Both the position numbers and the translations under genes were made by a program. A model generated the notes under the pieces. That model was given only the letters and a program-made list of their open reading frames with translations, was not told the DNA's origin and did no database searches. Below, one piece after another: positions 39,836 to 55,344 of a stretch of 64,000 bases of DNA; the stretch's first letter is position 1; each line of letters begins with the position of its first letter. The DNA is from Limnochordaceae bacterium (GTDB lineage Bacteria > Bacillota > Limnochordia > Limnochordales > Geochordaceae), in contig JADBKR010000005.1 in NCBI GenBank assembly GCA_014896295.1, forward strand, positions 310,001 to 374,000. Direction: 5' to 3'.

Positions 39836-41335
39836 TCAGCCGGGCAGGGAGAGCGCCGTGCGGGCGACCGCAAGCAGAGGCTCGGGCCAGATGCCCAGCG
39901 CCACGGTCCCCACGGCGAGCAAAGCGGCCAGAAGGGCGAGCGCCCGGCGAGGTCCGGCCGCCTCGGCCGCCGCCCCCCTGCCGCCATCGGCCACGATCCC
40001 GGTGTCCCGGGCAGCAGGACGCCCCGCGACGATGGAGTAGGCCAGCGTCAGGTACGGGTAGGCCAGCACCGCCGTCGAGACCGCCAGCACCAGCGCCAGC
40101 CACGCGGCTCCCTCACGGACGGCCGCCCCTACCAGCAGCACCTTGCCGACGAAGCCGCCGGTAAGCGGCATGCCCACCAGGGCCAGCAGAAAAATGGCGG
40201 CCGTCCAACCGGCGAGCGGCTGAGAGGCCGCCTGCCCTCTCAGGGCATCCAGCGGGTACTCGCTGCGTACCCCCGCCAGCATGGAGGCCGAGACGAAGAG
40301 GCCGAGGTTCATCAGGGCATAGGCGCCGAGGTAGAAGAGGCCGGCCGCTATCCCGTCCCCGGTGAAGTGGGGGAGGCCGATGAGCAGGTACCCGGCGTTG
40401 GCGATCCCGGAGTAAGCCATCAGCCGCCGCAGCTCCCGCTGGCGGAGCGCCCCCAGGCTGCCCACCAGCATGCTGAGCGCCGCCAGCGCCCACAGGGGGG
40501 CGTGAGCGGCGGGAGGAGCCACCGTCGCGACCCGGAGAAGGGCCGCGAACGCCGCCGCCTTGGTCGCCACCGACATGAAGGCGGTGACGCCCAGCGTGGC
40601 TCCCTCGTACGCATCCGGCGCCCAGACGTGGAACGGAGCCAGGGCGAGCTTCAGAGCGAGCCCCACCAGGATGAGGGCGAAGCCTCCCGCGGCGGTCCGG
40701 AAGGCGCCCTGCGCCGGCACCTCCGGCCCTCGTAGCGACAGGGTCCCCGTGGCGCCGTAGACCAGCGCCATGCCGAAGAGCAACACGCCGGAGGCGAGCG
40801 ACCCCAGCAGGAAGTACTTGAAGGCCGCCTCCTGGGCCCGGGGATCCCGCCGCCGGTACGCGACCAGCACGTACAGGCTCAGGGAGAGCAGCTCCAGCCC
40901 CAGGAAGAGCCCGGGCAGCGTCGTGGCGGAGGCCAACAGGCCCATGCCCGCCGCAGCCAGGAGCAACAACGCATAAAAGCCGGCGGGCTCGTGGCGGTCC
41001 AGGACCGGCACGGAGATGGCCACACCCACGAGCCCGCCTGCCACCACCACACCGGTCGCCACACGGGCCAACCCATCCAGGGCAAGCCGCGCCGGACCGG
41101 GCGCGCCGGTCACGACCCCCGCTCCGGTCGGCGCGGGCGGCTGGGCCAGCGCCGCACCGCCCACGAGCCACAGCGAGACGGCTGCCGCTGCCAGGCTGAC
41201 CAGCACGATGCCCGTATTGATGGCGGCCGCCCGTCGTCCCGGAGCGGCGAGTTCGATCCCGAGCACCAGGAGCGCCCCGGCCGCCAGGATCAGGCTGGGA
41301 GTCGCCCCGGCCGGAAAGAGCTGGCTCACGTCCAC
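39836..41335 (-). CDS. nuoN: NADH-quinone oxidoreductase subunit N
   Basis: Antiporter-like membrane subunit of complex I, about 14 helices, 499 aa. The key acidic residue is retained in LGLELLSLSLYVLVAYRRRD, the lysine in LKLALAPFHVWAPDAYEG and a second lysine in SVATKAAAFA, so the proton path looks intact. GTG start at 41335 with GAGGTGAG upstream. It follows nuoL by 46 nt; nuoM, which normally stands between them, is absent. Confidence 0.95.
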   Translation of the reverse strand: MDVSQLFPAGATPSLILAAGALLVLGIELAAPGRRAAAINTGIVLVSLAAAAVSLWLVGGAALAQPPAPTGAGVVTGAPGPARLALDGLARVATGVVVAGGLVGVAISVPVLDRHEPAGFYALLLLAAAGMGLLASATTLPGLFLGLELLSLSLYVLVAYRRRDPRAQEAAFKYFLLGSLASGVLLFGMALVYGATGTLSLRGPEVPAQGAFRTAAGGFALILVGLALKLALAPFHVWAPDAYEGATLGVTAFMSVATKAAAFAALLRVATVAPPAAHAPLWALAALSMLVGSLGALRQRELRRLMAYSGIANAGYLLIGLPHFTGDGIAAGLFYLGAYALMNLGLFVSASMLAGVRSEYPLDALRGQAASQPLAGWTAAIFLLALVGMPLTGGFVGKVLLVGAAVREGAAWLALVLAVSTAVLAYPYLTLAYSIVAGRPAARDTGIVADGGRGAAAEAAGPRRALALLAALLAVGTVALGIWPEPLLAVARTALSLPG

Positions 41336-41381
41336 GATCTCACCTCATCCGCGTCCACCCATGCCACGACGCACCGGCGCC

Positions 41382-43388
41382 TCAAAGGCCGGCCACCACC
41401 CAGATGACGACCACTGCCGCGCCGGCCAGCACCGCCAGCGCGTACCGGCGTACGAAGCCGCTCTGGAGCCGTCCCAGCCACCGGCTGACCAGCGCGGCCA
41501 GGGCTGCCACGCCGTTGACGCTCCCGTCCACGCCCTCGGTTTCGACGACCGACTCGGCCCAGCGGCTCACGGCCAGCGCCGGCCGGACGATGACCCGGGC
41601 GTACGCGGCATCCACGTACAACCCTGCCGCCCAGGCCGCGGCCACCCATGCCGGTGCCCGCAGGCGGCTGCCCGCGTCCCCTCGCCCGGGGCCATAGACC
41701 CACAGACCGGCGCCGCCGGCGGCCAGGGCCACCAGTACCGGTAGCCACGCCACCGCCGCCGGCACCCCGTGGGCGGCGACCTCGGCCGCCGGCTGCACGC
41801 CGGACGCTCCGGCGCCCTCCTGGAGGCCGCGGAAGACCGAACCCAGCACAGCAGGTGCCCACTCCACGCGTCCCGGTATCCAGACCCAGCCGGCCACCGC
41901 CGCCAACGTCGCCAGGATGACCACCGGCACCGTCATGGCCCGGGTCGTGGCTTCGGGCTCGTGATGGGCGGGCCTGCCGATCCGTGCCCGCACCGCGCTA
42001 CCCTGCGGGCCCGTGAAGATCAGCGCGACCATGCGGCCCGAGTAGAAGGCCGTCAACCCCGCCGCTGCCACCGCGAGGGCCCACAACCAGACGGCGCCCT
42101 GCTCCCAGGCTTGCTCCAGGATCGCCTCTTTGCTGAAGTATCCGGAGAACGGCGGGATGCCCGCCATGGCCAGGGCGCCCACCCCGTACGCCACGTAGGC
42201 GAGCGGCAGCCTGCCGGCGAGACCGCCCATGCGGCGGACGTCCTGTTCGCCCCCGAGGTAGTGGATCACCAGGCCCGCCGCCAGGAACAGCAAAGCCTTG
42301 AAAAACGCCTGCGTGAAGAAGTGGAACACGCCGGCCATCTGGGCTTGCAGCCCCACGCCCAGGAACATGTAGCCGATCTGGCTCATCGTCGAGTAGGCCA
42401 GGATCCGCTTGATGTCGGTCTGCCCGCAGGCCACGAGCGCGCCGAACAGCGCCGACAGCGCTCCCACCCACGCGACCGCCTGCGATGCGGCCGGCGCTGC
42501 CGCGTAGACGGGGTACATGCGGGCCGTGAGGTAGACCCCTGCGGTCACCATCGTGGCGGCGTGGATCAAGGCGCTCACCGGCGTGGGGCCGGCCATCGCG
42601 TCGGGCAGCCACACGTGCAACGGGAGCTGCGCCGACTTGGCCGCCGCCCCCCACAGCAAGAGCAGCCCGATGGCCGTCAGCGTCTCCTGGGGCACGCCGC
42701 CGAGGCGCTGGAACAGCGTGACGAAGTCGAGCGCCCCGGTCTGGTCCCACAGCCACGCCGACGCCACGACGATGGCGATCTCTCCGCCCAAGGTCACGAG
42801 AAACGCCTTGATCGAGGCCGCCCGGGCATCGGCCCGTTGATGCCAGAAGCCGATCAGCAGGTACGAGGCGAGGCCCACGTTGGCCCAACCGATGAGCATG
42901 GGCAACAAGCCGTCGGCGAGCACCAGCAGGCTCATGGCGAAGATGAAGTAGTTGAGCTCGGCGAAGTAGCGTCCGAAACTCGGATCCTCGGCCATGTACC
43001 CCACCGAGTAGATGTGGATCAACAGCCCCACGCCGGTGACGATCAGGGCGAACCAGAGCGATAGCCCGTCACCCAAGAGGCCCAGGCCGAGCCGATCCGC
43101 CGGCGTTCCCCCTGCGACCGCGGGCCCCGTGCCCGTCCACCATTCGCCGATGCGCCAAACCAGGGGCACATGCTCCGAGGGCGAGCCATGGGAGAGGTAG
43201 CCCACCAGAGCCACCACGGCGCTCGCAAACGCCAGGGCCACCGCACCGTTGGCGACCCACGCCACCGCCCGGCGGCTCCAGCGCCGTCCGGCCAACGCCA
43301 GCACCAGCGCCCCCGCCAGCGGGAATGCCACGATGGCTGCAAGCCAGGGGGATGTCACCATGCCTGCCGCGCCCGCCCCTTCACCCAT
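41382..43388 (-). CDS. nuoL: NADH-quinone oxidoreductase subunit L, with several altered key residues
   Basis: 668 aa with the NuoL core, including KSAQLPLHVWLPDAMAG, SALIHAATMVTAGVYL, AYSTMSQIGYMFLG and a C-terminal lateral helix plus transmembrane end. Oddities against the family: GWEGVG is GWANVG, so the normally invariant Glu is Ala; KAFIVxRxGD is KAFLVTLGGE; FHLMTHAFFKA is FHFFTQAFFKA; and FSKDEIL is FSKEAIL. The start at 43388 overlaps nuoK by 8 nt; an internal ATG at 43361 is possible. Confidence 0.93.
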   Translation of the reverse strand: MGEGAGAAGMVTSPWLAAIVAFPLAGALVLALAGRRWSRRAVAWVANGAVALAFASAVVALVGYLSHGSPSEHVPLVWRIGEWWTGTGPAVAGGTPADRLGLGLLGDGLSLWFALIVTGVGLLIHIYSVGYMAEDPSFGRYFAELNYFIFAMSLLVLADGLLPMLIGWANVGLASYLLIGFWHQRADARAASIKAFLVTLGGEIAIVVASAWLWDQTGALDFVTLFQRLGGVPQETLTAIGLLLLWGAAAKSAQLPLHVWLPDAMAGPTPVSALIHAATMVTAGVYLTARMYPVYAAAPAASQAVAWVGALSALFGALVACGQTDIKRILAYSTMSQIGYMFLGVGLQAQMAGVFHFFTQAFFKALLFLAAGLVIHYLGGEQDVRRMGGLAGRLPLAYVAYGVGALAMAGIPPFSGYFSKEAILEQAWEQGAVWLWALAVAAAGLTAFYSGRMVALIFTGPQGSAVRARIGRPAHHEPEATTRAMTVPVVILATLAAVAGWVWIPGRVEWAPAVLGSVFRGLQEGAGASGVQPAAEVAAHGVPAAVAWLPVLVALAAGGAGLWVYGPGRGDAGSRLRAPAWVAAAWAAGLYVDAAYARVIVRPALAVSRWAESVVETEGVDGSVNGVAALAALVSRWLGRLQSGFVRRYALAVLAGAAVVVIWVVAGL

Positions 43389-43689
43389 TCAACTGCCGCA
43401 CGTCGTCGGCGTCCACGTGCCGCCGGGCACGGAAGATGGTCACGATGAGCGCAAGCCCGATGGCCGCCTCCGCCGCCGCCACCGTCATGGCCAGGAAGGC
43501 CACCACCTGCCCCGAAGGCTCTCCCAGGTGGCGGGCATAAGCGAGAAAGGCCAGGCCGGCCGCGTTCCACATGACCTCCACCGACATGAGCATGGCGAGC
43601 GGCGACCGGCGGACCAGGACCCCGAGCCCGCCGATGCCGAACAGGACCACCGCCACGGCCACGTATGCTTCGACAGGAGCCCCCGGCAT
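43381..43689 (-). CDS. nuoK: NADH-quinone oxidoreductase subunit K
   Basis: Small three-helix membrane subunit, 102 aa. Both conserved Glu residues are present, in LMSVEVMWNAAGLAF and VAAAEAAIGLAL. Position between nuoJ and nuoL and length are standard. Confidence 0.94.
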   Translation of the reverse strand: MPGAPVEAYVAVAVVLFGIGGLGVLVRRSPLAMLMSVEVMWNAAGLAFLAYARHLGEPSGQVVAFLAMTVAAAEAAIGLALIVTIFRARRHVDADDVRQLNG

Positions 43690-43695
43690 GACCCT

Positions 43696-44352
43696 CTACC
43701 TCTTCTCCCCCGCGCCGTGCGTCGTAGGACCGGCGGGTGCGACCGCCAGGCCTTGCCCCTCAGGCGGCTGCGCGGCGGCCGCCGGCTCGAGGACCCGGGC
43801 ATCCTGCCGGCCATCTTCCGGTTCCGCCGCTTCGCGCCGGCGGCCCACGATGACCATCACGCCGACCATGGCCACCAGCAGGACGAGCCCCGCCACCTCG
43901 AGCTCGAAAGGAAAGCCCTGCAGGAGGGTGCGGCCAAACTCCGCCACGCCGCCGTATCCTTCCGGCACGGCTACCCAGGAGCCCGTCCCCCCGGCTCCGG
44001 CCGCCCGGCCGCCCGGCCCGAGGACCCTCAACAAGACCGCCGCCACGAGGGCGCCCACGGAGGCCAGCGCCAGCGGCAGCTGCAGCGCCAGTGGGTCGAC
44101 CTCCGTCTCCACGGGCCGGTTGCGGGCGCTCAGGATGGTGATGACGAAGACGAACAACACCATCACGGCACCGGCATAGATGATGATCTGGGCGATGGCC
44201 AGGAACTCGGACTGCAGGGTCAGGTACAGGGCCGAGAGCCCCGCGAAGTTGACCAGCATGGCGAGCACGCCGTGGACCGGCGTGCGGGCCGCCACCACGC
44301 CCAACGCCCCGGCCACCGCGACCGCGGCCGCAGCCACGAAGACCAGCGTCAT
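43696..44352 (-). CDS. nuoJ: NADH-quinone oxidoreductase subunit J
   Basis: 218 aa with five predicted helices. The region ALYLTLQSEFLAIAQIIIYAGAVMVLFVFVI (here as EFLAIAQIIIYAGAVMVLF) is the pi-bulge helix of NuoJ. The C-terminus has a 45-residue charged tail beyond the last helix. The start overlaps nuoI by 4 nt. Confidence 0.93.
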   Translation of the reverse strand: MTLVFVAAAAVAVAGALGVVAARTPVHGVLAMLVNFAGLSALYLTLQSEFLAIAQIIIYAGAVMVLFVFVITILSARNRPVETEVDPLALQLPLALASVGALVAAVLLRVLGPGGRAAGAGGTGSWVAVPEGYGGVAEFGRTLLQGFPFELEVAGLVLLVAMVGVMVIVGRRREAAEPEDGRQDARVLEPAAAAQPPEGQGLAVAPAGPTTHGAGEKR

Positions 44353-45014
44353 GACGCGACGGCCCGCCTCTCCTCCGGCACGCAGGGGCCGGCGTCCTGC
44401 CGGCGCGACAGCGCTCGCTGTGCCTCTTGCTCGCCGACGGGAGCCGTCACGCCTGGCCTCTCACGGCCCACCTCCGGCGCTTCCGGAGGTCGCCGCCCCT
44501 CGAAGGGAGGGTAGACGACCTCCGGCACGGTGAACTCCGTCGCCTCCCGATCGACCAAGATCCGCCGCCCGTAGACGAGTGCATCCCGGCTGAACGCGGC
44601 CATCTCGTACTCCTGCGTCAGATGCAGGGCCCCCGTCGGGCACGCCTCTTCGCACATCCCGCAGTAGATGCATCGCAACATGTCGATCTCGTAGGCAAAC
44701 GCGTACCGCTCTCCGGGCGAGTGGGGATGCCGGGGGTCGTTCTCCGCGGCGTAGACCGTGATCGCATTGGCCGGGCAGGCCACCTGGCACAGTTCACAGC
44801 CCACGCACATCTCCTGCCCGTTGGCGTAGCGGCGCAGCTCGTGGCGGCCGCGGAAGCGCGCGCTCCTCTCCCGGCGCCTGTCCGGGTACTGGATGGTGTG
44901 CTTGCGCTGCCAGAGGATGCGCAGGGTCGTGCCGAAGCCCTTGGCCAGCCCGCGGGCGACCCTCCACGCTCGGGCCCCGGCCTCCGGAGGCACCCGCTCA
45001 ACCGGCGCTGCCAT
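44349..45014 (-). CDS. nuoI: NADH-quinone oxidoreductase subunit I (two 4Fe-4S clusters)
   Basis: Carries clusters N6a and N6b in the peripheral arm. Two complete ferredoxin motifs are seen: CVGCELCQVACPANAI and CIYCGMCEEACPTGAL. GAGGGGAG lies 10 nt before the ATG at 45014. The C-terminus is about 50 residues longer than usual and rich in Pro, Glu and Arg. Confidence 0.95.
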   Translation of the reverse strand: MAAPVERVPPEAGARAWRVARGLAKGFGTTLRILWQRKHTIQYPDRRRERSARFRGRHELRRYANGQEMCVGCELCQVACPANAITVYAAENDPRHPHSPGERYAFAYEIDMLRCIYCGMCEEACPTGALHLTQEYEMAAFSRDALVYGRRILVDREATEFTVPEVVYPPFEGRRPPEAPEVGRERPGVTAPVGEQEAQRALSRRQDAGPCVPEERRAVAS

Positions 45015-45052
45015 CCCCCGATCGCTCCCCTCTTCCAACCGTTGTCGCCGCG

Positions 45053-46045
45053 TCAGCCGGCCAGGGCGGCCCACCCGGCGTACACCAGCAAGTTGGCCAC
45101 CGACAGCGGCAGCAGGACTTTCCAGCCCAGGGCCATCAGCTGGTCGTAGCGCAGCCGGGGTACCGTGGCCCGCACCCAGATGAAGAAGAACAGCACGGCC
45201 CCGAGCTTCAACAAGAACCAGACGACGCCGGGCAACGACGACGGCCCGGCCCACCCTCCCAGGTACAGCAACGTGACCAGGCTCGCCTGGGTAATCAGGT
45301 TGACGTACTCGGCCATGACGAACATGGCCATGCGCAGCCCGCTGTACTCCGTGTGGTAGCCGGCGACCAGCTCCGTCTCCGCCTCGGGGAGATCGAACGG
45401 AGCCCTGGCCACCTCGGCGCTCGCCGTGATCAGGTAGATGACGAAGCCGAGCGGCTGGACCAGCGCGTACGGGTACGGCGACTGCGCCGCCACGATGTCC
45501 GACAGCCGCAGCGAACCGGCCATCACCAGCACGGCGAGCAGGTTCATGGCCATGGCGATTTCGTAGCTGATGAGCTGCGCGCTCGCCCGCAGCCCGCCCA
45601 GCAGCGCGTACTTGCTCTGCGACGCCCAGCCGCCCAGGGCGACCCCGTAGATGCCGAGCGACGTGAACGCGAGCAGCACCAGGATGCCCGCGCCCGGGTC
45701 GGCGATGCTGAGCGGGATGGTGTAGGGCCCGATATGCACCGGTGGCCCCACGGGAATGACGGCGTACGCCGCCAGCGCCATGAAGAGGCTGATGCCCGGT
45801 GCCAGCAAGTAGATCAGCCGGTCCGCCTCGGCCGGGATCACGTCCTCTTTGATGAGCGCCTTGACCCCGTCGGCCACGGGCTGCAGCAGCCCCCACGGCC
45901 CTGTGCGGTTAGGGCCCAGGCGAAACTGGAAAAAGCCCAGGATCTTGCGCTCGAAGAGCATCAGGTAGGCAAAGGTCCCGAGGAGCAACAGCACCAGGAC
46001 CAGCGACTTGGCAGCCAACCCCAAGACGACGCCCCAGGAGGTCAT
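45053..46045 (-). CDS. nuoH: NADH-quinone oxidoreductase subunit H
   Basis: Membrane subunit at the quinone site, eight helices, 330 aa. ERKILGFFQFRLGPNRTGPWG, KALIKEDVIPAEAD and APFDLPEAETELVAGYHTEYSG are all typical, with quinone-channel acidic residues retained. It lies 10 nt after nuoG. Confidence 0.96.
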   Translation of the reverse strand: MTSWGVVLGLAAKSLVLVLLLLGTFAYLMLFERKILGFFQFRLGPNRTGPWGLLQPVADGVKALIKEDVIPAEADRLIYLLAPGISLFMALAAYAVIPVGPPVHIGPYTIPLSIADPGAGILVLLAFTSLGIYGVALGGWASQSKYALLGGLRASAQLISYEIAMAMNLLAVLVMAGSLRLSDIVAAQSPYPYALVQPLGFVIYLITASAEVARAPFDLPEAETELVAGYHTEYSGLRMAMFVMAEYVNLITQASLVTLLYLGGWAGPSSLPGVVWFLLKLGAVLFFFIWVRATVPRLRYDQLMALGWKVLLPLSVANLLVYAGWAALAG

Positions 46046-46055
46046 GGCCGGGATG

Positions 46056-48545
46056 TCAGCGCACCACCTCTCCGGCGATCACCTGCACCGCCGTCACCAC
46101 CGGGTGACGATCCCCCACCGCCACCAGGCGGTTCACGCCGCTTCCGGGGCCGTGAGGCTCCACGCCGGCCAGGCCGGGCCCCACCGCCCGGTCCACCGCC
46201 ACGTGGCCTGTCACGGCGCCGTGCGCGGTGGCCAGGGTCACGGGCTCACCGCCCGCCACGCCCAGCCGCCGGGCATCCTCCGGGTGCAGGTGCAACGTCA
46301 CACCCTGGCGGTGCACCTTCGGCGTGAAAGCTTCGTCATGGGCCGCCGTGCCCCCGCCCACCATCAGCCGGTCGAGCACCACGACCCGCAGCCCGCCCTC
46401 CGGCCCACCCGGCGCCTTGCCGTCCCGCGGCTCCGCCGCATGCGCCCGCCCGCCCCACAGGGCCCGGGCCTCTTGCGGCGCGAGGGCGCCCAGGGCCTCT
46501 CCGGCGACGTCGACGTCCCGGCCACTCCACCAGCCGTTCGCGCCCTTCCCGTGCGGCCCGGACGAGCTCCGGGCTCCCAGCCGGGAGGCGATCGCTTCGA
46601 TGATGGCGGCGTCGGAGCGGCCCCCGTCGGCCCCGGCATCCAGGGCCGCCTCCATCCGGTGCACCGTGCCGTCCATGTCCACGAGCGTCCCGTCGCGCAT
46701 CCACGCGGGGACGGCCGGGAGCACCAGCGTGGCGAGCTCGGCCGTGGCGGTCAGGAAGAGGTCCTGCACGATGACCGCCGGCGTCGTTTCCAGGGCCTTC
46801 TCCACCAGGGCCCGATCGGGGAAAGTCTCGAGCAGGTTGGCTCCCACCAGGTACAGCACCCGGAACTCGCCGCGCGCCGCCCGCGCCAGGATCCCGGCGG
46901 TGTCGAGCCCACCTCGACCCGGCAGCAGGCCGGTGGCTTCCGCTGCCCGACTCTGGGGTTGATCTCCGGGGACGAGCACGTGCACCTCTGCCCCGGCCTC
47001 CTCCAGCCGCCCGGCCAGATCGAGGAGCGCCTCCCCGGCCACGGCGGCCGACCCGTCCCAGGCACCTTTGCCGTCCCACACGATGGCCGCCGTGGCGTTG
47101 CGCCCTTCCCGGCCGGCCCTGGCGACGGCCTCGAGTACCTGGGACCTGATGGCCTCGATGGCCGCCCTCGTCTCCGCACCGCCGACGGCCCAGGTATGCC
47201 GCACCGCCTGCCCGCGGTACGACGGGTCGACCGGCCCGATCGAGAAGACCGCGGCGCCGGCGCCGGCCGCCTGCCGCACGGCGAGATCGAGCACGGGGGC
47301 TCGTTCGACCGGAGGTTGCCCCACCACGACGACGATCCCGGCGCGGCCCACGGCCTCCATGCGGCCGGCCCGTCCCGAGGGCGTCGCCAGCGACGCGACG
47401 GCCTGATCCCCGGTCCGGTGATCGCGATGGGGGGTGCCCACGGCATCGGCCAGCGCTCGCAGGGCGGCCGCCTCCTCCGCCATGAGCCGGCCCCCGCCGA
47501 CGATGGCCACGCTCCCGGGCCCGGCGGTGGCCACCGCCTCCCGGATCGCCCGGGCCGCTTCCTCGATCGCCTCGTCCCAGGGCATCGCCCGCCTGGCGCT
47601 CCCGCGCCCGGCGAGAGGCGTCGAGAGCCGGTCCGCGGACTGCGCCCACCGGTAGTTGAACCGGCCCCGGTCGCACAGCCATCCCATGCCCCTGGCCCCG
47701 GCAACGTCCTCGGCAGGAGTGTGATACGCCTGCATCAATCCCCGGGCCCCGAACAGATGCTCCTCCGGTGCTCCCTGCGAGACCACCCGCACCAGCTGCC
47801 CGTGCCGGAAGTCCAGCCGTACCGGGCAGTGCACCGAACAAAGGGTGCAGGCGGAGGCCACCGGAGCCAGGTCCCACGGCCGTGCCCGGAACCGGTACGG
47901 CTCCGAGGTGAGCGCGCCCACCGGGCAAAGCTCGATCGTGTTGCCGGTGAAGTAGTGCGCGTACGGCTCTCCGCCGGCGGTCGCCACCTCGGCATGGTGC
48001 CCTCGCTCCGCGATGACGAGCTGGCCCTCGTGAGCCACCTCGTCGTCGAATCGCACGCACCGCCGGCACAGGATGCACCGCTCCTGGTCGAGCACCACGA
48101 ACGGCCCCAGCTGCACCGCCTTCGGCTTGCGCACTTTGGCGTCGTAGAGCCGGCTTGCACCCGGGCCGTACCTGAACGTCAGGTCCTGGAGCTCGCACTC
48201 GCCGCCCTTGTCGCACACCGGGCAATCCAGCGGGTGATTGAGGAGCAGGAACTCGAGCACGCTCTGCTGGGCCTCCTGCACCTCCGGGTGGCGGGTGTCC
48301 ACGACCATGCCCTCGGCTACGGGCGTGGTGCAGGCGGTCACCAGCTTGGGCATCTTCTCGACCTTGACCAGGCACATCCGGCACACGCCCGCCGGCTTCA
48401 ACTTCGGATGGTAGCAGAAGACCGGGATGGGGATCCCCGCGCGGCGCGCCGCCTCGACGATCAGGGTACCGGGGGGCACCTCGACCGTGCGGCCGTCGAT
48501 GGTCACGCGAAGTTGCGCAGGAGCTGCTCCGGCGGCGCCGTTCAT
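46056..48545 (-). CDS. nuoG: NADH-quinone oxidoreductase subunit G
   Basis: 829-aa iron-sulfur subunit. In order: a 2Fe-2S domain (CYHPKLKPAGVCRMC, TACTTPV), the HxxxC cluster (NHPLDCPVCDKGGECELQD), the 4Fe-4S cluster (CILCRRCVRF, LCPVGAL) and a further Cys set (ACTLCSVHCPVRLD) opening the molybdopterin-like domain. The ATG at 48545 overlaps the nuoF stop in an ATGA arrangement. An apparent longer reading frame upstream is antisense to this overlap and not real. Confidence 0.95.
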   Translation of the reverse strand: MNGAAGAAPAQLRVTIDGRTVEVPPGTLIVEAARRAGIPIPVFCYHPKLKPAGVCRMCLVKVEKMPKLVTACTTPVAEGMVVDTRHPEVQEAQQSVLEFLLLNHPLDCPVCDKGGECELQDLTFRYGPGASRLYDAKVRKPKAVQLGPFVVLDQERCILCRRCVRFDDEVAHEGQLVIAERGHHAEVATAGGEPYAHYFTGNTIELCPVGALTSEPYRFRARPWDLAPVASACTLCSVHCPVRLDFRHGQLVRVVSQGAPEEHLFGARGLMQAYHTPAEDVAGARGMGWLCDRGRFNYRWAQSADRLSTPLAGRGSARRAMPWDEAIEEAARAIREAVATAGPGSVAIVGGGRLMAEEAAALRALADAVGTPHRDHRTGDQAVASLATPSGRAGRMEAVGRAGIVVVVGQPPVERAPVLDLAVRQAAGAGAAVFSIGPVDPSYRGQAVRHTWAVGGAETRAAIEAIRSQVLEAVARAGREGRNATAAIVWDGKGAWDGSAAVAGEALLDLAGRLEEAGAEVHVLVPGDQPQSRAAEATGLLPGRGGLDTAGILARAARGEFRVLYLVGANLLETFPDRALVEKALETTPAVIVQDLFLTATAELATLVLPAVPAWMRDGTLVDMDGTVHRMEAALDAGADGGRSDAAIIEAIASRLGARSSSGPHGKGANGWWSGRDVDVAGEALGALAPQEARALWGGRAHAAEPRDGKAPGGPEGGLRVVVLDRLMVGGGTAAHDEAFTPKVHRQGVTLHLHPEDARRLGVAGGEPVTLATAHGAVTGHVAVDRAVGPGLAGVEPHGPGSGVNRLVAVGDRHPVVTAVQVIAGEVVR

Positions 48546-49825
48546 GCCACCACTGCCTCCCGGACGCACCGGCCCAGCGTCACGTGGGCCCGGTACTCGT
48601 CCATGAAGTACTTGAGGCTCGACTGGAGAAAACCGACGCCCGCGTCCGACAGCGGGCAGATGGTGCGGCCGGCGATGTTGCCCGGAAGGCTCTGGAGGAC
48701 CTCGATGTCCCCGGGCCGCCCCCGCCCGGCCTCGATGCGAGCCAGGATCCGGGCCGCCCAGTGGAGCCCCTCCCGGCACGGCGTGCACTGCCCGCACGAC
48801 TCGTGGGCGTAAAACTCCGCGAGGATCCGGGCCGCTTCCACGATGCAGTCCCGGTCGTCGAGGACGATGACCGCCCCCGACCCCAGCATCGAGCCCGCCT
48901 TGGCGATGGACTCGTAGTCCAGCGGCACGTCCAGCTGCGCTTCGGTCAGGACGGCGGACGAACCGCCCCCGGGCTGAACGGCCTTGACCCGGCGGCCGGG
49001 CTCCAGGCCCCCCGCGACGTCGAACAGCAGCGTGCGCAACGGGATGCCGAGGGGCAGCTCGTAATTGCCCGGCCGGCGCACCCGGCCGCTGACCGAGAAG
49101 ATCTTGGGGCCCGGGCTGGTGGGCGTGCCGATGGAGGCGAACCACCTGGCCCCCCGGTCGACGATCGACGGGATGCAGGCAAGCGTCTCCACGTTGTTGA
49201 CCACGGTGGGCATGCCGTACAACCCCACCACCGCAGGGAACGGCGGCTTGAGCCTCGGCTCGCCCCGGCGCCCCTCGAGGGAGTTGAGCAGTCCCGTCTC
49301 CTCGCCGCAGATATAAGCGCCGGCGCCCCGGTGCACCACGATTTCCAGGGAAAAGTCCGATCCCAGCACCCGGGAACCGACGTAGCCCCGCTGCCTCGCC
49401 TCGGCCAACGCTCGGGAGAGCACCTCGTACGCCCGGCGGAACTCTCCCCGCAGGTAGATGAACGCCTTCGCGGCCCCGATGGCGTACCCGGCCAGCATGA
49501 TCCCCTCGATGACCAGGTGAGGGTTGCGCTCCAGGAGCAGCCGGTCCTTGAACGTCCCCGGCTCGCTCTCGTCGGCGTTGCAAATCAAGTACCGGGGACG
49601 CCCGTCCTTGGGCAGGAAGCTCCACTTGCGCCCCGTCGGGAAACCGGCGCCGCCCCGGCCCCGCAAGCCCGAGTCGCTCACCTCCTGGTGCACCTGCTCC
49701 GGGCTGAGCTCCCGGACCGCTCGCCGCAGGGCCCGGTAGCCCCCTTGCGCCTCGTACCCCTCGATGGCCTCGAGGGCCACCTTGCCGATGCCGGCCGTCA
49801 GTACCGGCTCAAAGGTCTGGCTCAT
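48542..49825 (-). CDS. nuoF: NADH-quinone oxidoreductase subunit F (FMN, NADH site)
   Basis: 427 aa. It has the FMN/NADH region LRGRGGAGFPTGRKW, NADESEPGTFKDR and GAGAYICGEETGLLNSLEG, and the 4Fe-4S motif SCGQCTPCREG with its distant Cys in TICPLSDAG. GGAAGGGAC precedes the ATG at 49825, which lies inside the end of nuoE (17-nt overlap). Confidence 0.96.
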   Translation of the reverse strand: MSQTFEPVLTAGIGKVALEAIEGYEAQGGYRALRRAVRELSPEQVHQEVSDSGLRGRGGAGFPTGRKWSFLPKDGRPRYLICNADESEPGTFKDRLLLERNPHLVIEGIMLAGYAIGAAKAFIYLRGEFRRAYEVLSRALAEARQRGYVGSRVLGSDFSLEIVVHRGAGAYICGEETGLLNSLEGRRGEPRLKPPFPAVVGLYGMPTVVNNVETLACIPSIVDRGARWFASIGTPTSPGPKIFSVSGRVRRPGNYELPLGIPLRTLLFDVAGGLEPGRRVKAVQPGGGSSAVLTEAQLDVPLDYESIAKAGSMLGSGAVIVLDDRDCIVEAARILAEFYAHESCGQCTPCREGLHWAARILARIEAGRGRPGDIEVLQSLPGNIAGRTICPLSDAGVGFLQSSLKYFMDEYRAHVTLGRCVREAVVA

Positions 49826-50423
49826 CACCCGGTCCCTTCCGCTCCGCCACCGGCCTTTGCCCGTTGGGAGAGATCGCCGGCGTTGCCGGCGCCCGGGTCG
49901 CCTCGCCGGGCAACGTGGCCTTGTCGGCCAGCCGGGCCGGCGGCACCCCATCCTTCAGCGACTCGATGAGGGCGTCCACCCGCTCCGGGGTGGCCCGGTG
50001 CACGTAGTAACCGTTGACCTGCAAGACCGGCGCCTGATCGCAGGCGGCCAGGCACTCCCCGGTGACCTTCAGCGTGAACATGCCGTCGCCCGTGGTCTCG
50101 CCGGCCACGACCCCCAGCCGCCGCTCCAGATACCCCACCAGCTCCCTCGCCCCGCCGAGGGCACAGGCCAGGTTGCCGCAGACGGTGAGGGTGTAGCGTC
50201 CCTCTGGCCTGCGCAAGAAGAGGCTGTAGAAAGAGGCGACCGACTCGACCTGAGCGGGCGTGAGATCGAGGATCTCCCCGACGGCGTCGATGTCCTCGCG
50301 GTCGAGGTAACCCCGCTGCTCCTGGGCCAGGTGCAACAGGGGCATGATGGCCGACCGCTTGTCCGGGTAGCGGGACAGGATCTCGCGCACCGCCGACTCG
50401 TCACGAGCCCACTGTGGCGCCAT
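49809..50423 (-). CDS. nuoE: NADH-quinone oxidoreductase subunit E (2Fe-2S)
   Basis: 204 aa thioredoxin-like ferredoxin subunit. Cluster Cys are in TVCGNLACALGG and VTGECLAACDQAPVLQVNG. The C-terminus carries about 35 extra Pro/Ala-rich residues. It lies between nuoD and nuoF. Confidence 0.94.
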   Translation of the reverse strand: MAPQWARDESAVREILSRYPDKRSAIMPLLHLAQEQRGYLDREDIDAVGEILDLTPAQVESVASFYSLFLRRPEGRYTLTVCGNLACALGGARELVGYLERRLGVVAGETTGDGMFTLKVTGECLAACDQAPVLQVNGYYVHRATPERVDALIESLKDGVPPARLADKATLPGEATRAPATPAISPNGQRPVAERKGPGDEPDL

Positions 50424-50429
50424 GGCGGC

Positions 50430-51671
50430 TCAACGATCCACCTCTCCGAAGACCGGGTCGATGCTGGCGATGATGGCCACCATGTCGGCCACCAGGTGGC
50501 CCCGGATGATGAGGGGGATCGCCTGCGTGTTGTAAAACGACGGGGGCCGGACCCGCACCCGCATCGGCCGGTTGCCGCCGTCCGAGACCACGTAGAAGCC
50601 GATCTCCCCCCGGGGGCTTTCCACCGCCTGGTAGACCTCGCCTGCCGGCACGTCGAACCCGTAAGAGACCAGCTTGAAGTGATGGATCAGCGCCTCCATG
50701 CTGCGCCGGACCTCCTCCTTGGGAGGCAGCGACAGCTTGGGATCCTCGACCCGGTACCCCCCCTCGGGCAAGCCGTCCAGCGCCTGGCGGGCGATGCGGG
50801 CGCTTTGCTCCATCTCCGCCATGCGGACGAGGTACCGGTCGTACACGTCGCCGTGCTCGCCCACGGGCACCTCGAAGTCGAACTCCTGGTAAGCGCTGTA
50901 CGGAAACGCCTTGCGCACGTCGTAGTCGACCCCGCACGCCCGCAAGTTGGGGCCGGTCAATCCCCAGGCGAGCGCCTGTTCCGGCGTGACGGCCCCGGTT
51001 CTGCGCACCCGGGCGAGCCAGATCGGGTTATCGTCCAGGATGGCCCGCAGCTCTCCCAAGCGGCGAGGGAACGCACGCAGGTAGGCGTCCACCATTCGCA
51101 CGAAGCCGGGCGTGACGTCCTGCGCGAGCCCGCCGACCCGGAAGTAGCTCGGATTCATCCGGGCGCCCGACACCTCTTCGAAGATGTCGAGGATGCCCTC
51201 GCGCATGTCGAAACCGTAAAAGTAGATGCTCTGCGCCCCCAGGTCCAGGGCATGGGTGGCAAGCCAGACCAGGTGGCTGGCGATGCGCTGGAGCTCCGTG
51301 AGCAGGACGCGCACGTACTGGGCGCGCCGGGGCGGCTCCACCCCCAGGAGCTTCTCTACGGCCAGCACGTAACCGAGGTTGTTGGACAGCGGGGAGAGGT
51401 AATCCATCCGGTCGAGCACCGTGATGGCTTGCTGCCAGGTGAGGTGCTCCGCGTGCTTCTCGATGCCGGTGTGCAGGAAGCCGATCTCGGCCTCGGCGTC
51501 CGTGATGGTCTCTCCATCCAGCTCCAGGATCAGGCGCAGCACGCCGTGGGTACTGGGATGGTGCGGCCCCACGCTGACCGTCATGCGCTCCTGCTGGACC
51601 TCGTCGATCCAGAGGGAATCTCCGAGCGCCTGCCGGCGATCCCGGACGTCGTGCTTCGTCGTCTCATGCAT
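50430..51671 (-). CDS. nuoD: NADH-quinone oxidoreductase subunit D
   Basis: 413-aa quinone-site subunit related to hydrogenase large subunits. GPHHPSTHGVLRL, the IGFLHTGIEKHAEHLTWQQ region and the C-terminal RPPSFYNTQAIPLIIRGHLVADMVAIIASIDPVFGEVDR region (RPPSFYNTQAI) are intact. It follows nuoC by 6 nt. Confidence 0.97.
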   Translation of the reverse strand: MHETTKHDVRDRRQALGDSLWIDEVQQERMTVSVGPHHPSTHGVLRLILELDGETITDAEAEIGFLHTGIEKHAEHLTWQQAITVLDRMDYLSPLSNNLGYVLAVEKLLGVEPPRRAQYVRVLLTELQRIASHLVWLATHALDLGAQSIYFYGFDMREGILDIFEEVSGARMNPSYFRVGGLAQDVTPGFVRMVDAYLRAFPRRLGELRAILDDNPIWLARVRRTGAVTPEQALAWGLTGPNLRACGVDYDVRKAFPYSAYQEFDFEVPVGEHGDVYDRYLVRMAEMEQSARIARQALDGLPEGGYRVEDPKLSLPPKEEVRRSMEALIHHFKLVSYGFDVPAGEVYQAVESPRGEIGFYVVSDGGNRPMRVRVRPPSFYNTQAIPLIIRGHLVADMVAIIASIDPVFGEVDR

Positions 51672-51677
51672 GGCCGT

Positions 51678-52200
51678 TCAACGCCCGTCTTCCTCCGCTC
51701 CCAGCTTGAGCGGTGCAAACCGGCTCCTGAGCGCCTGCGGCTGCCGGGACCGCTCCGGCCCCCGCAACGGGTAATCCTTGCGCAGGGGGTGGCCCTGCCA
51801 GTCGTCGGGCATCAAGATGCGCTTCAAGTTGGGATGCCCCTCGAAGCGGATGCCAAACAGGTCGAACACCTCACGCTCCGCCCAGTTGGCCGAGGGCCAC
51901 AGGTCGCTCACGGTGTCCAGGCGTGGATCCTGTTCCGGCAGCGGCACCCTCAGCCGCAGCCGCCGGCGCTCGTGCACGTCGAGGAGGTGGTACACCACCT
52001 CGAAGCGCTCCTCCGCCGGCCGGTGGCCCAGGTAGTCGACGCCTCCGACGTCCAGGAGCATCCGGTAGCCCTGCTCCCGCAAGAAGCGCGCCACCTCCTT
52101 GAGGGCCCCGGCCCTCACCCGCAGCACCGGCGTGTCGGGCGAAGACGGCAAGAGCTCGACGTCTTGCGGCCATCGCTCGGCGAGGCGCTGCAGCAGCTCG

Positions 52201-52208
<8 letters not shown>
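51678..52208 (-). CDS. nuoC: NADH-quinone oxidoreductase subunit C
   Basis: 176 aa peripheral-arm subunit. [26 protein letters not shown] ([11 protein letters not shown]), [29 protein letters not shown] ([14 protein letters not shown]) and the end [10 protein letters not shown] are typical. Overlaps nuoB by 8 nt. Confidence 0.96.
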
Positions 52209-52703
<495 letters not shown>

Positions 52704-52713
<10 letters not shown>

Positions 52714-53054
52714 TCGAATCCTCCCTTTCTCCAGACGTACGCATCCCCGATGGCCAGGATCAGGAGGAACAGCCCCATGACGGCCAGACCGTACCCTCCC
52801 AGGTGGCGCACCTGGATGGCCCAGGGGTAGAACGCGACCGTCTCCACGTCGAAGATGACGAAGAGCATGGCGACCACGTAAAACTTGACCGAGAAACGCC
52901 CGAGCAAGGGAGGCGTCGGGTAGCCGCTTTCGTAGGCTTCTGCCTTCACCGGGTCCGGACGCCGGGGTCCCACGCGAGCGGCCAGGAGACTGATCGTGGC
53001 CGTGACGACGAGGACCACCGCGAGGTAAATGGACAGCGCCCCGTAGGCCTCCAC
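52704..53054 (-). CDS. nuoA: NADH-quinone oxidoreductase subunit A
   Basis: 116-aa, three-helix membrane subunit. [20 protein letters not shown] and [17 protein letters not shown] are diagnostic. The GTG at 53054 was chosen because GGGGGG lies 10 nt upstream and length fits; open frame further upstream runs into the leader. First gene of the nuo operon. Confidence 0.94.
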
Positions 53055-53160
53055 CGATCGCAAGCCCCCCGTGTACCCCGCCCCTCCCGGCGACCCGGCT
53101 CTCCAGGGGCCGGCTCCCCCGGGCGGCAGTTTGTGATAATCAGCACTAAAAACCCTCAAT

Positions 53161-53202
53161 AAAAGCGGCGATCCCGTGGCCGTGCCACCGCATCCGATCG
53201 CC
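53161..53202 (-). terminator. terminator-like hairpin in the nuo leader (possible attenuator)
   Basis: On the minus strand a 7-bp stem (53196-53202 with 53167-53173) and an inner 5-bp stem (53184-53188 with 53176-53180) are followed by GCTTTTAT (53161-53164 gives TTTT). It lies about 20 nt after the predicted start of nuo transcription and more than 100 nt before nuoA. No upstream minus-strand gene needs a terminator here, so attenuation of nuo is a reasonable inference. Confidence 0.55.
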
Positions 53203-53230
53203 GAACGAGCCCCGTCTTCGCCTCTGGCAA

Positions 53231-53259
53231 AGTATAAACGACGGCTCCGGACCATGCAA
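53231..53259 (-). promoter_or_regulatory. sigma-A type promoter of the nuo operon
   Basis: On the minus strand: -35 TTGCAT (53254-53259), a 17-nt spacer and -10 TATACT (53231-53236). The leader to the nuoA GTG is about 170 nt. The rest of the leader shows the hairpin at 53161-53202 and an A/T-rich patch; no further gene is seen between nuoA and the divergent GH15 gene. Confidence 0.78.
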
Positions 53260-53376
53260 CGCGCCGGGTCATCCCGAAGGTTCCCGAAGGGTCCTCGCTT
53301 TTCCTCCTCTGCTGCGAGAGAGGAGCGGAAGGCAGGCGTGGCGTAGGGACCCGCCAGTCCTGGACGTGAAGGTGGC

Positions 53377-55344
53377 ATGCAGCCGGCCGTGACAGCCTTT
53401 CCAGCGCCAGCCCCCGCGCCGAGCCCCGCCGAGGACCCGGCGGACGCCGGGGTGGTGGGCAACGGCCAAACGGTCGCGATCATCGCTCGCACCGGCGCCG
53501 TGACCTGGTGGTGCCTGCCGAGGGTGGACGGCCACCCGGTGCTGGCGCGCGCCCTCGATCCCTCCCGCGGCGGGATGCTCGACGTTACCCCTGCGTCGCC
53601 CCGCTCTCTTTCTTCCCGCCTGGCCGGAGCGCGCCAGGCGTACTACGACGGCAGTACGGTCCTCGTCACCCGGTGGAAGGCGGGAGGCGGCGCCGTTGCC
53701 GCGGTGGACTTCATGCCCTGGGGCAAGCCTGCCCTGGTTCGGGAGGTGTGGGCCTCCGCCCCTTCGCCCCTCGAGTCCCTGGTGTTGCGCCTCACCGTCA
53801 CCCGTGCCGCCGTGGCCGGCCGCTGGGCGGCGGCCGGCGGGGATCCCGCGGCGCTGGTCACCGAAGACGCGCCTGAAGCGGCCATGGCCTTCGCCCTGGC
53901 GCCCGGGAGCACGAGCGCCCCCCCGCAGGCGTCGTGGGAGCCCGGCACCGGCACGCTCGAGATCCGGTGGAAACCGGCCGGCTCCTGGGATCCCGGCCGA
54001 CCCGCTCCTCCTCATCCGCTCCTCGACGGCCTGCGGCCGGTCGCGCGCCTCGCCGTCGGCTACGGGCGCACCGTCGACCAGGCGCGCTCCGCTGCTGCCG
54101 CCCTGAGCCGCCTGTCGCCCGAGGAGGGCGTTTGTGAGTCCCGGGAGTGGCTGAGTCGCGCCGTGGTCCCGCAGGGCATGAGCCCCGGGCACCTCGCGGC
54201 CTTCCGGCGCTCCTTGCTCACGCTGCGCCTGCTCACCTACCCCGAGACAGGTGCCATCGTGGCGGCTCCCACCGCCTCATGGCCCGCCACGCCGGGCGGT
54301 TCGGACAACTGGGACTACCGGTTCACCTGGCTGCGAGACGGGGCGTGGACGGCCTGGGCGCTGGACCGGGCGGGGTTCCACCGGGAGGCCCGCGCCTTCT
54401 ACCGGTTCGCGGCGCGCCTCCAGGCGGCCGACGGTCACTGGTCCCAGCCCCTCTATGCGGTGGACGGGCGGCTTCCGGTGGAGTTCGACGCGCCGGAGCT
54501 GAGCGGGCCCGGAGGCGAGCGTCCCGTTCGCTTCGGCAACGCCGCTGCCCACCAATTGCAGCTCGACAACGAGGGCAACGTCTTGTGGGGCGTGCAGGCC
54601 CACGTGGAGCTCACGGGCGACCAACAGCTGCTGTGGGAGACGTGGGACATGGTCAAGCGGGCGGCCCTGTGGGTCGAAGCGCACTGGCGCATGCCCGAGA
54701 GCGGCATCTGGGAGCTGCGGGAGTTCACCGGCCACTGGGTGCACGGGACGTCCATGGCCGCCGTGGCCCTGGCCAGCGCCGCGCGGTTGGCCCGAAGGGC
54801 GGGCACGGGCGAAGAGGCGGCCGGACGGTGGGAAGAGCTGGCCCGGGAGATCGCCCGCCAGGCGCTAGACCGTGCGTGGTCGGCCCGTCGCGGGGCGCTG
54901 ATGCGGTTGTTCACCCCGCAAGGCCCCGACGAGTCTCAGGTGCTCGACATCTCGGTGCTGACGCCCCTTCTGTGGCACCTCGCCGACGCCCGCGATCCTC
55001 GCCTCGTCGCCACCATCGAGGCGATGCACCGTTCCCCGGCGGAGGGCGGGCTCACCGTGCGGGCGCCTTCGGCCGCCCGGGGCGGAGAAGGGCTGCTGCG
55101 GTTCGGGGACGGCGCCCTGCCGTTTTACATGGCCGGCTTCTGGATGGTGCGGGCCCTGCACCGGATGGGCCGGGACAGGCAGGCCGTGGCGCTCCTCGAT
55201 CGCCTGTTGGAAGGGGCCAACCCCCTGGGGCTCATGGGCGAGCACCACGATCCGGCGACCGGGCGGCAGTGGGGCAACTTCCCCCAGGCCTTCAGCCATG
55301 AGGAACTGATCCACGCTCTGTACGAGCTGTACGAACCAGGGTAA
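53377..55344 (+). CDS. glycoside hydrolase family 15 (glucoamylase/trehalase-like)
   Basis: 655 aa. The (alpha/alpha)6 domain shows DNWDYRFTWLRDGAWTAWAL, the general-acid Glu in SGIWELREFTGHWVHG and the general-base Glu in MGEHHDPATGRQWGNFPQAFSH. No signal peptide is evident, so a cytoplasmic alpha-glucan, maltooligosaccharide or trehalose substrate is likely. GAAGGTGGC precedes the ATG. Its last 53 nt overlap the convergent GntR gene. Confidence 0.9.
   Translation: MQPAVTAFPAPAPAPSPAEDPADAGVVGNGQTVAIIARTGAVTWWCLPRVDGHPVLARALDPSRGGMLDVTPASPRSLSSRLAGARQAYYDGSTVLVTRWKAGGGAVAAVDFMPWGKPALVREVWASAPSPLESLVLRLTVTRAAVAGRWAAAGGDPAALVTEDAPEAAMAFALAPGSTSAPPQASWEPGTGTLEIRWKPAGSWDPGRPAPPHPLLDGLRPVARLAVGYGRTVDQARSAAAALSRLSPEEGVCESREWLSRAVVPQGMSPGHLAAFRRSLLTLRLLTYPETGAIVAAPTASWPATPGGSDNWDYRFTWLRDGAWTAWALDRAGFHREARAFYRFAARLQAADGHWSQPLYAVDGRLPVEFDAPELSGPGGERPVRFGNAAAHQLQLDNEGNVLWGVQAHVELTGDQQLLWETWDMVKRAALWVEAHWRMPESGIWELREFTGHWVHGTSMAAVALASAARLARRAGTGEEAAGRWEELAREIARQALDRAWSARRGALMRLFTPQGPDESQVLDISVLTPLLWHLADARDPRLVATIEAMHRSPAEGGLTVRAPSAARGGEGLLRFGDGALPFYMAGFWMVRALHRMGRDRQAVALLDRLLEGANPLGLMGEHHDPATGRQWGNFPQAFSHEELIHALYELYEPG

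Follow-up and report, generated by a model that had tools for sequence, protein, structure and literature searches.

Among the relatives of respiratory complex I, two antiporter-like subunits are found in the MBS complex (PMC7684303) and four or five in the 2M-type enzymes (PMC9040806). A 2025 survey of prokaryotic complex I describes CD fusions and the loss of EF or EFG (PMC12361115); a search of its text for the terms NuoM, missing and Limnochord returned no class of enzyme without NuoM. The description of cultured relatives of the organism studied here mentions just a proton-translocating NADH:quinone oxidoreductase (PMC11456536), and closed genomes of three cultured Limnochordales exist (PMC11456536). 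No prior report of a complex I without nuoM was found in the literature searched, although an earlier mention may exist. The cluster described below encodes a complex I of the NADH type from which nuoM is missing.

Gene content and organization of the cluster

The minus strand of the window (the whole stretch of 64,000 nucleotides that was analysed) carries 13 genes in the order nuoA-B-C-D-E-F-G-H-I-J-K-L-N, with no nuoM. The N-, Q- and P-modules of an NADH-type complex I are all encoded, the gene for the central antiporter-like subunit aside: the NADH module (E, F, G), the Q module (B, C, D, I) and the membrane core (A, H, J, K) are present, and from the three antiporter-like subunits L, M and N the cluster holds L and N only. 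Subunits A, B, C, D, E, F, G and I were identified by Pfam, and H, J and K by NCBIfam. The features are as follows.

39836..41335, minus strand: nuoN, 499 aa, GTG start, intact, all four key residues kept
41336..41381, minus strand: junction between nuoL and nuoN, 46 nt, the usual site of nuoM, no remnant
41382..43388, minus strand: nuoL, 668 aa, intact, lateral helix of standard length
43381..43689, minus strand: nuoK, 8-nt overlap with nuoL
43696..44352, minus strand: nuoJ
44349..45023, minus strand: nuoI, start approximate
45053..46045, minus strand: nuoH
46056..48578, minus strand: nuoG, start approximate
48545..49954, minus strand: open frame of nuoF, start approximate
49812..50429, minus strand: open frame of nuoE
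50433..51677, minus strand: open frame of nuoD
51681..52262, minus strand: open frame of nuoC
52204..52700, minus strand: nuoB, start approximate, inside the open frame 52204-53139
52707..53100, minus strand: nuoA, start approximate, inside the open frame 52707-53642

The original prediction, made from the letters of the window, had described a nuo operon without nuoM in which nuoN begins 46 nt past nuoL; this was borne out, and the junction is empty. It had also held that nuoN is genuine and not a renamed nuoM. The best NCBIfam models for the window NuoL were PRK06590 and TIGR01974, with a score above the cut-off. The window NuoN scored 316 bits with TIGR01770, just below the curated cut-off of that model (332.6), versus 130 bits with the NuoM model TIGR01972, and a tree built from N and M proteins placed it within NuoN (support 100/100). 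The profile scores and the tree rule out a renamed NuoM and uphold the assignment.

Beyond L and N, no further antiporter-like gene with PF00361 was found in the window. The window genome (2.89 Mb) has five PF00361 genes, namely L and N of the window plus L, M and N on another contig. As this genome is in 8 contigs and 97% complete, an assembly error or missing sequence could have removed nuoM. The closed genome G075 (3.31 Mb, same species), however, has the same five PF00361 genes and the same 13 genes in the same order without M, and missing sequence, including an assembly gap, is therefore excluded as the cause; with the identical junction in two more single-contig genomes as well, the probability of an artefact is negligible.

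Distribution of the cluster

In a NuoL profile search, this type of NuoL was found in 14 of the 73 genomes of the class; the group with the M-less cluster is taken to be Limnochordia. Regarding the 12 genomes with a whole NuoL and downstream sequence (G000, G075, G001, G002, G003, G004, G006, G007, G012, G014, G019 and G023), L was followed directly by N, and never by M, in all 12. The same order was seen in G011, where the contig ends inside L, so that the comparison with sister genomes proposed earlier gave L-N without M in 12 of the 14 plus G011. At these 13 loci the start of the N open frame ranges from 157 nt ahead of the L stop to 81 nt past it. The nuoL of the M-less cluster in G001, a single-contig genome, lies in two frames near the lateral helix (L009:4124-6099), which reflects either a sequencing error or a broken gene.

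In Chloroflexi, 27 NuoL loci had downstream sequence, and M came next in all 27. The screen for M-less clusters in other phyla covered Chloroflexi only, plus a scan of about 85,000 genomes for a single motif; this motif, the TM5 motif without Glu, gave seven matches, six in Bacillota and one in Chloroflexi. The pair in G029 (L036) was rejected as a complex I, being a hydrogenase-linked set. The Chloroflexi genome GL140_3_metabat_63 (G041) carries a Glu-less NuoL with the motif GWANVG on a contig that ends inside nuoL, and, besides a full L-M-N cluster, a lone NuoN that opens another contig (L096/L097); it is possibly a second M-less lineage.

Three genomes from one family of the order (G005, G008 and G010) have only the second cluster described below and no M-less cluster. 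The three MAGs of the family DUMU01 are alone in having no cytochrome c oxidase (PMC11456536); if these MAGs are G005, G008 and G010, the M-less cluster would accompany aerobic respiration.

Second cluster

The second cluster (cluster 2, the M-less cluster being cluster 1) has the order B-C-D-H-I-J-K-L-M-N, with E, F and G absent. Its nuoM, an open frame of 515 aa, is the sole nuoM of the closed genome G075, and cluster 2 with its nuoM was present in 14 of the 14 genomes with the M-less cluster, the reverse not being true. In the window genome this nuoM has one G missing from a G run relative to G075 (G000:C3 ~159955), which is probably an assembly error; the frame of the window-genome copy was not relied on, and the G075 copy was used for intactness. 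In the cluster-2 NuoN (G000:C3:157339-158223 and relatives), the central lysine of TM8 (K247, E. coli numbering) is replaced by Glu in 13 genomes with the M-less cluster, whereas three genomes that have no M-less cluster, and G042, retain it; the replacement was one event by the tree.

Phylogeny and loss of nuoM

The NuoL proteins of the M-less cluster were monophyletic, as were its NuoN proteins (support 100/100 in both cases), and one loss of M is therefore enough. The closest sequences to M-less NuoL in the tree were four Chloroflexi NuoLs (support 99/97), three of which have nuoM directly downstream, with a full A-N operon in G304. Since the nearest relatives carry M, M was lost and not originally absent, and most likely the M-less cluster goes back to a typical complex I cluster of 14 genes, from which M was lost once. 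The loss was a single one, it preceded the split of the Limnochordia families with the cluster, and nuoM was never regained.

The cluster-2 NuoM grouped with cluster 2; the NuoM of the closest relatives of cluster 1 that have M lay elsewhere in the tree. The cluster-2 nuoM is thus of the wrong lineage to be the lost gene in a new place, and relocation is ruled out. The original prediction had named an intact nuoM of matched phylogeny elsewhere in the genome as evidence that would count against it: the genome search did find one nuoM, in cluster 2, and an intact copy exists, but it belongs to another lineage and its phylogeny does not match. The interpretation given at the time is partly supported, in that the arrangement is real and conserved; the 13-subunit, differently pumping enzyme that it considered is hypothetical.

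Lateral helix of NuoL

Measured between two anchors, the conserved Asp that follows TM15 and the conserved Tyr at TM16, the lateral helix of M-less NuoL had 55-56 residues in 11 of 11 sequences, with no shortening, which suffices to span both M and N; the corresponding length in M-containing enzymes was 52-57 residues (E. coli, Thermus, Mycobacterium, Paracoccus and 31 Chloroflexi-side sequences). In the NuoL of cluster 2 the helix had 81 residues in 15 of 15 sequences, owing to a tandem duplication with a period of 26 (G000:C3:160129-162072; L006:10129-12072). In the predicted single-chain models the pLDDT of the helix region was mostly 30-55 in both, i.e., of very low confidence.

In the 2M complex I, an insertion of about 26 aa in the lateral helix of NuoL accompanies one extra NuoM (PMC9040806). 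At about 26 residues per added subunit, some 26 residues should therefore be surplus in M-less NuoL, and on this measure the helix of either cluster could span one subunit more than the cluster encodes. The measure is not a strict one, because the insertion also occurs in other complexes of Ca. Manganitrophaceae, read as possibly in transition (PMC9040806), and because G005 and G010 have a helix of 81 residues and yet only three antiporter-like genes in all.

Origin of a possible middle subunit

The standard helix length in M-less NuoL is what would be expected if NuoM from cluster 2 (M2) completed the enzyme as N1-M2-L1, with one or two copies of M2 in the cluster-2 enzyme itself. Consistent with such borrowing, the dependence between the clusters is one-way (cluster 1 always occurs with cluster 2, and three genomes have cluster 2 only), the only nuoM available in G075 is the cluster-2 copy, and the cluster-2 NuoL, with its helix of 81 residues, has room for one subunit beyond those encoded. 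The remaining comparisons argue the other way: M2 is unrelated to the M of the closest M-containing relatives of cluster 1; the M2/L2 rate ratio was 0.83 in genomes with cluster 1 versus 0.65 in those without, so that M2 is no slower; N1 and N2 did not converge, nor did L1 and L2 (2 and 4 columns); M2 had no residues clearly confined to the genomes with cluster 1, one weak column aside; and the identity between L1 and L2 is only about 40%. The rate and convergence tests give sharing no support, and the helix length and strict co-occurrence fit it; borrowing is considered quite possible, and only a little less likely than the two-pump reading below.

The unshortened helix would be accounted for without borrowing if a second copy of NuoN1 (or NuoL1) occupied the middle slot, so that two genes would yield N-N-L, and in G005 and G010, with their three antiporter-like genes, the cluster-2 NuoL likewise has room for one more subunit. 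NuoN, however, binds NuoK on one face, and in a second copy that same face would have to bind NuoN. We know of no precedent for a homomeric middle slot in complex I, and a doubled subunit is judged improbable.

Key residues and selection

In NuoN of the M-less cluster, E133, K217, K247 and K395 (E. coli numbering here and below) were all kept and invariant among the sequences aligned, and M-less NuoL has kept K229, H254, K342 and K399. The position of the TM5 glutamate E144 was occupied by Ala or Gly in 12 of 12 M-less NuoLs; in the window NuoL, Glu144 corresponds to Ala169 and Asp178 to Glu203. The exchange D178E was present in 12 of 12 M-less NuoLs versus 0 of 48 others, all of which have Asp, the M-containing sisters included, and among the key residues it is the only change specific to M-less NuoL. 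A clustering of M-less-specific changes on the M-facing side of NuoL (residues 100-190) gave p=0.06 and is not claimed.

Three Chloroflexi genomes (G304, G346 and G277; loci L104, L117 and L123) have a NuoL without the supposedly essential TM5 Glu and retain nuoM. An adaptation of TM5 to the loss of M was rejected on these grounds; the loss of E144 is common to M-containing Chloroflexi relatives and is therefore older than the loss of M.

The missing TM5 Glu also bears on whether the cluster is decaying, or encodes an NADH:quinone oxidoreductase whose membrane arm has ceased to pump. In Thermus, replacement of the equivalent residue (Nqo12 E132Q) raised proton conduction (PMC11496545), and the evolutionary rates of M-less L and N are about 1.3-1.5 times those of L and N in cluster 2. 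Against decay, the 13 genes stay in order across families, the key residues of NuoN are invariant, the relatives that keep M have no such Glu either, and dN/dS was below 1 (0.20 for M-less L and 0.46 for N, from few changes). M-less L and N appear to evolve under constraint, with nearly all catalytic residues kept, and decay is considered very improbable.

A proposed complex I with two pump subunits

The reading tentatively put forward here, with somewhat less than an even chance of being correct, is a natural NADH:quinone complex I with two pump subunits and a lower H+/e- ratio, fixed in a bacterial lineage and existing beside a longer-armed complex I within one cell; its subunit composition, L-N contact, pumping ratio and electron acceptor are what we infer for it. 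NuoL would dock directly on NuoN through the quasi-equivalent interface common to the homologous subunits, and the enzyme would move about 3 H+ per NADH (one each through N, L and the proximal E-channel), not 4. Judging from menB and menD, which were found in these genomes, menaquinone is the likely electron acceptor. A lower gear would suit the oxidation of NADH by menaquinone, for the gap between the two is about 0.24 V on textbook potentials, an energy too small to move 4 H+ when the proton-motive force is high. Cluster 2, with no NADH module and a longer lateral helix, would then serve as the high-gear partner for a stronger donor.

The two-pump enzyme is favoured by the M-less gene order, which is present in the window, recurs in the closed genome G075 and extends throughout the order and the class. 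It is further supported by the separation of the two operons, with the lone NuoM belonging to cluster 2 by position and phylogeny, and by the absence of a slow-down of NuoM2 and of convergence between N1 and N2 or L1 and L2; by analogy, the varying number of antiporter-like subunits among complex I relatives would also allow it. Against it stand the NuoL helix, which has kept an M-spanning length, and the cluster-2 nuoM carried by each of the 14 genomes, as a shared NuoM would need.

If true, a natural enzyme free of the middle subunit is a ready-made deletion experiment, and would test the assignment of one proton to each antiporter-like subunit, direct coupling between L and N, and the purpose of the lateral helix. 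If NuoM is instead borrowed, one pump subunit would be common to two respiratory complexes.

Comparison with known systems

Like the 14-subunit complex I (nuoA-N; E. coli, Thermus), the window cluster has all genes of the N- and Q-modules in the same order, a proximal N and a distal L with a lateral helix, and its nearest relatives are M-containing operons of Chloroflexi; unlike it, the cluster has no nuoM, and the window NuoL has no TM5 Glu and carries D178E. The 11-subunit type of complex I without E, F and G, to which cluster 2 corresponds, shares B, C, D, H-L and N with the window cluster, and differs from it in the presence of nuoM, the absence of the NADH module and a NuoL helix longer by about 26 aa. 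The MBS complex is likewise a relative of complex I with two antiporter-like subunits (PMC7684303), but is not an NADH:quinone oxidoreductase, and its modules are made up differently. The 2M complex I (Nitrospira and others, four pumps) is characterized by a NuoL insertion of about 26 aa together with two nuoM genes; the window NuoL has no insertion and its cluster no nuoM, and cluster 2 has the insertion but one nuoM. The 2M enzyme and Complex_I_3 of Ca. Manganitrophaceae, with its five pumps, have changed in their number of antiporter-like subunits (PMC9040806), as has the window cluster; those enzymes gained subunits and a helix longer by about 26 aa (PMC9040806), whereas the M-less cluster lost one subunit with its helix unshortened.
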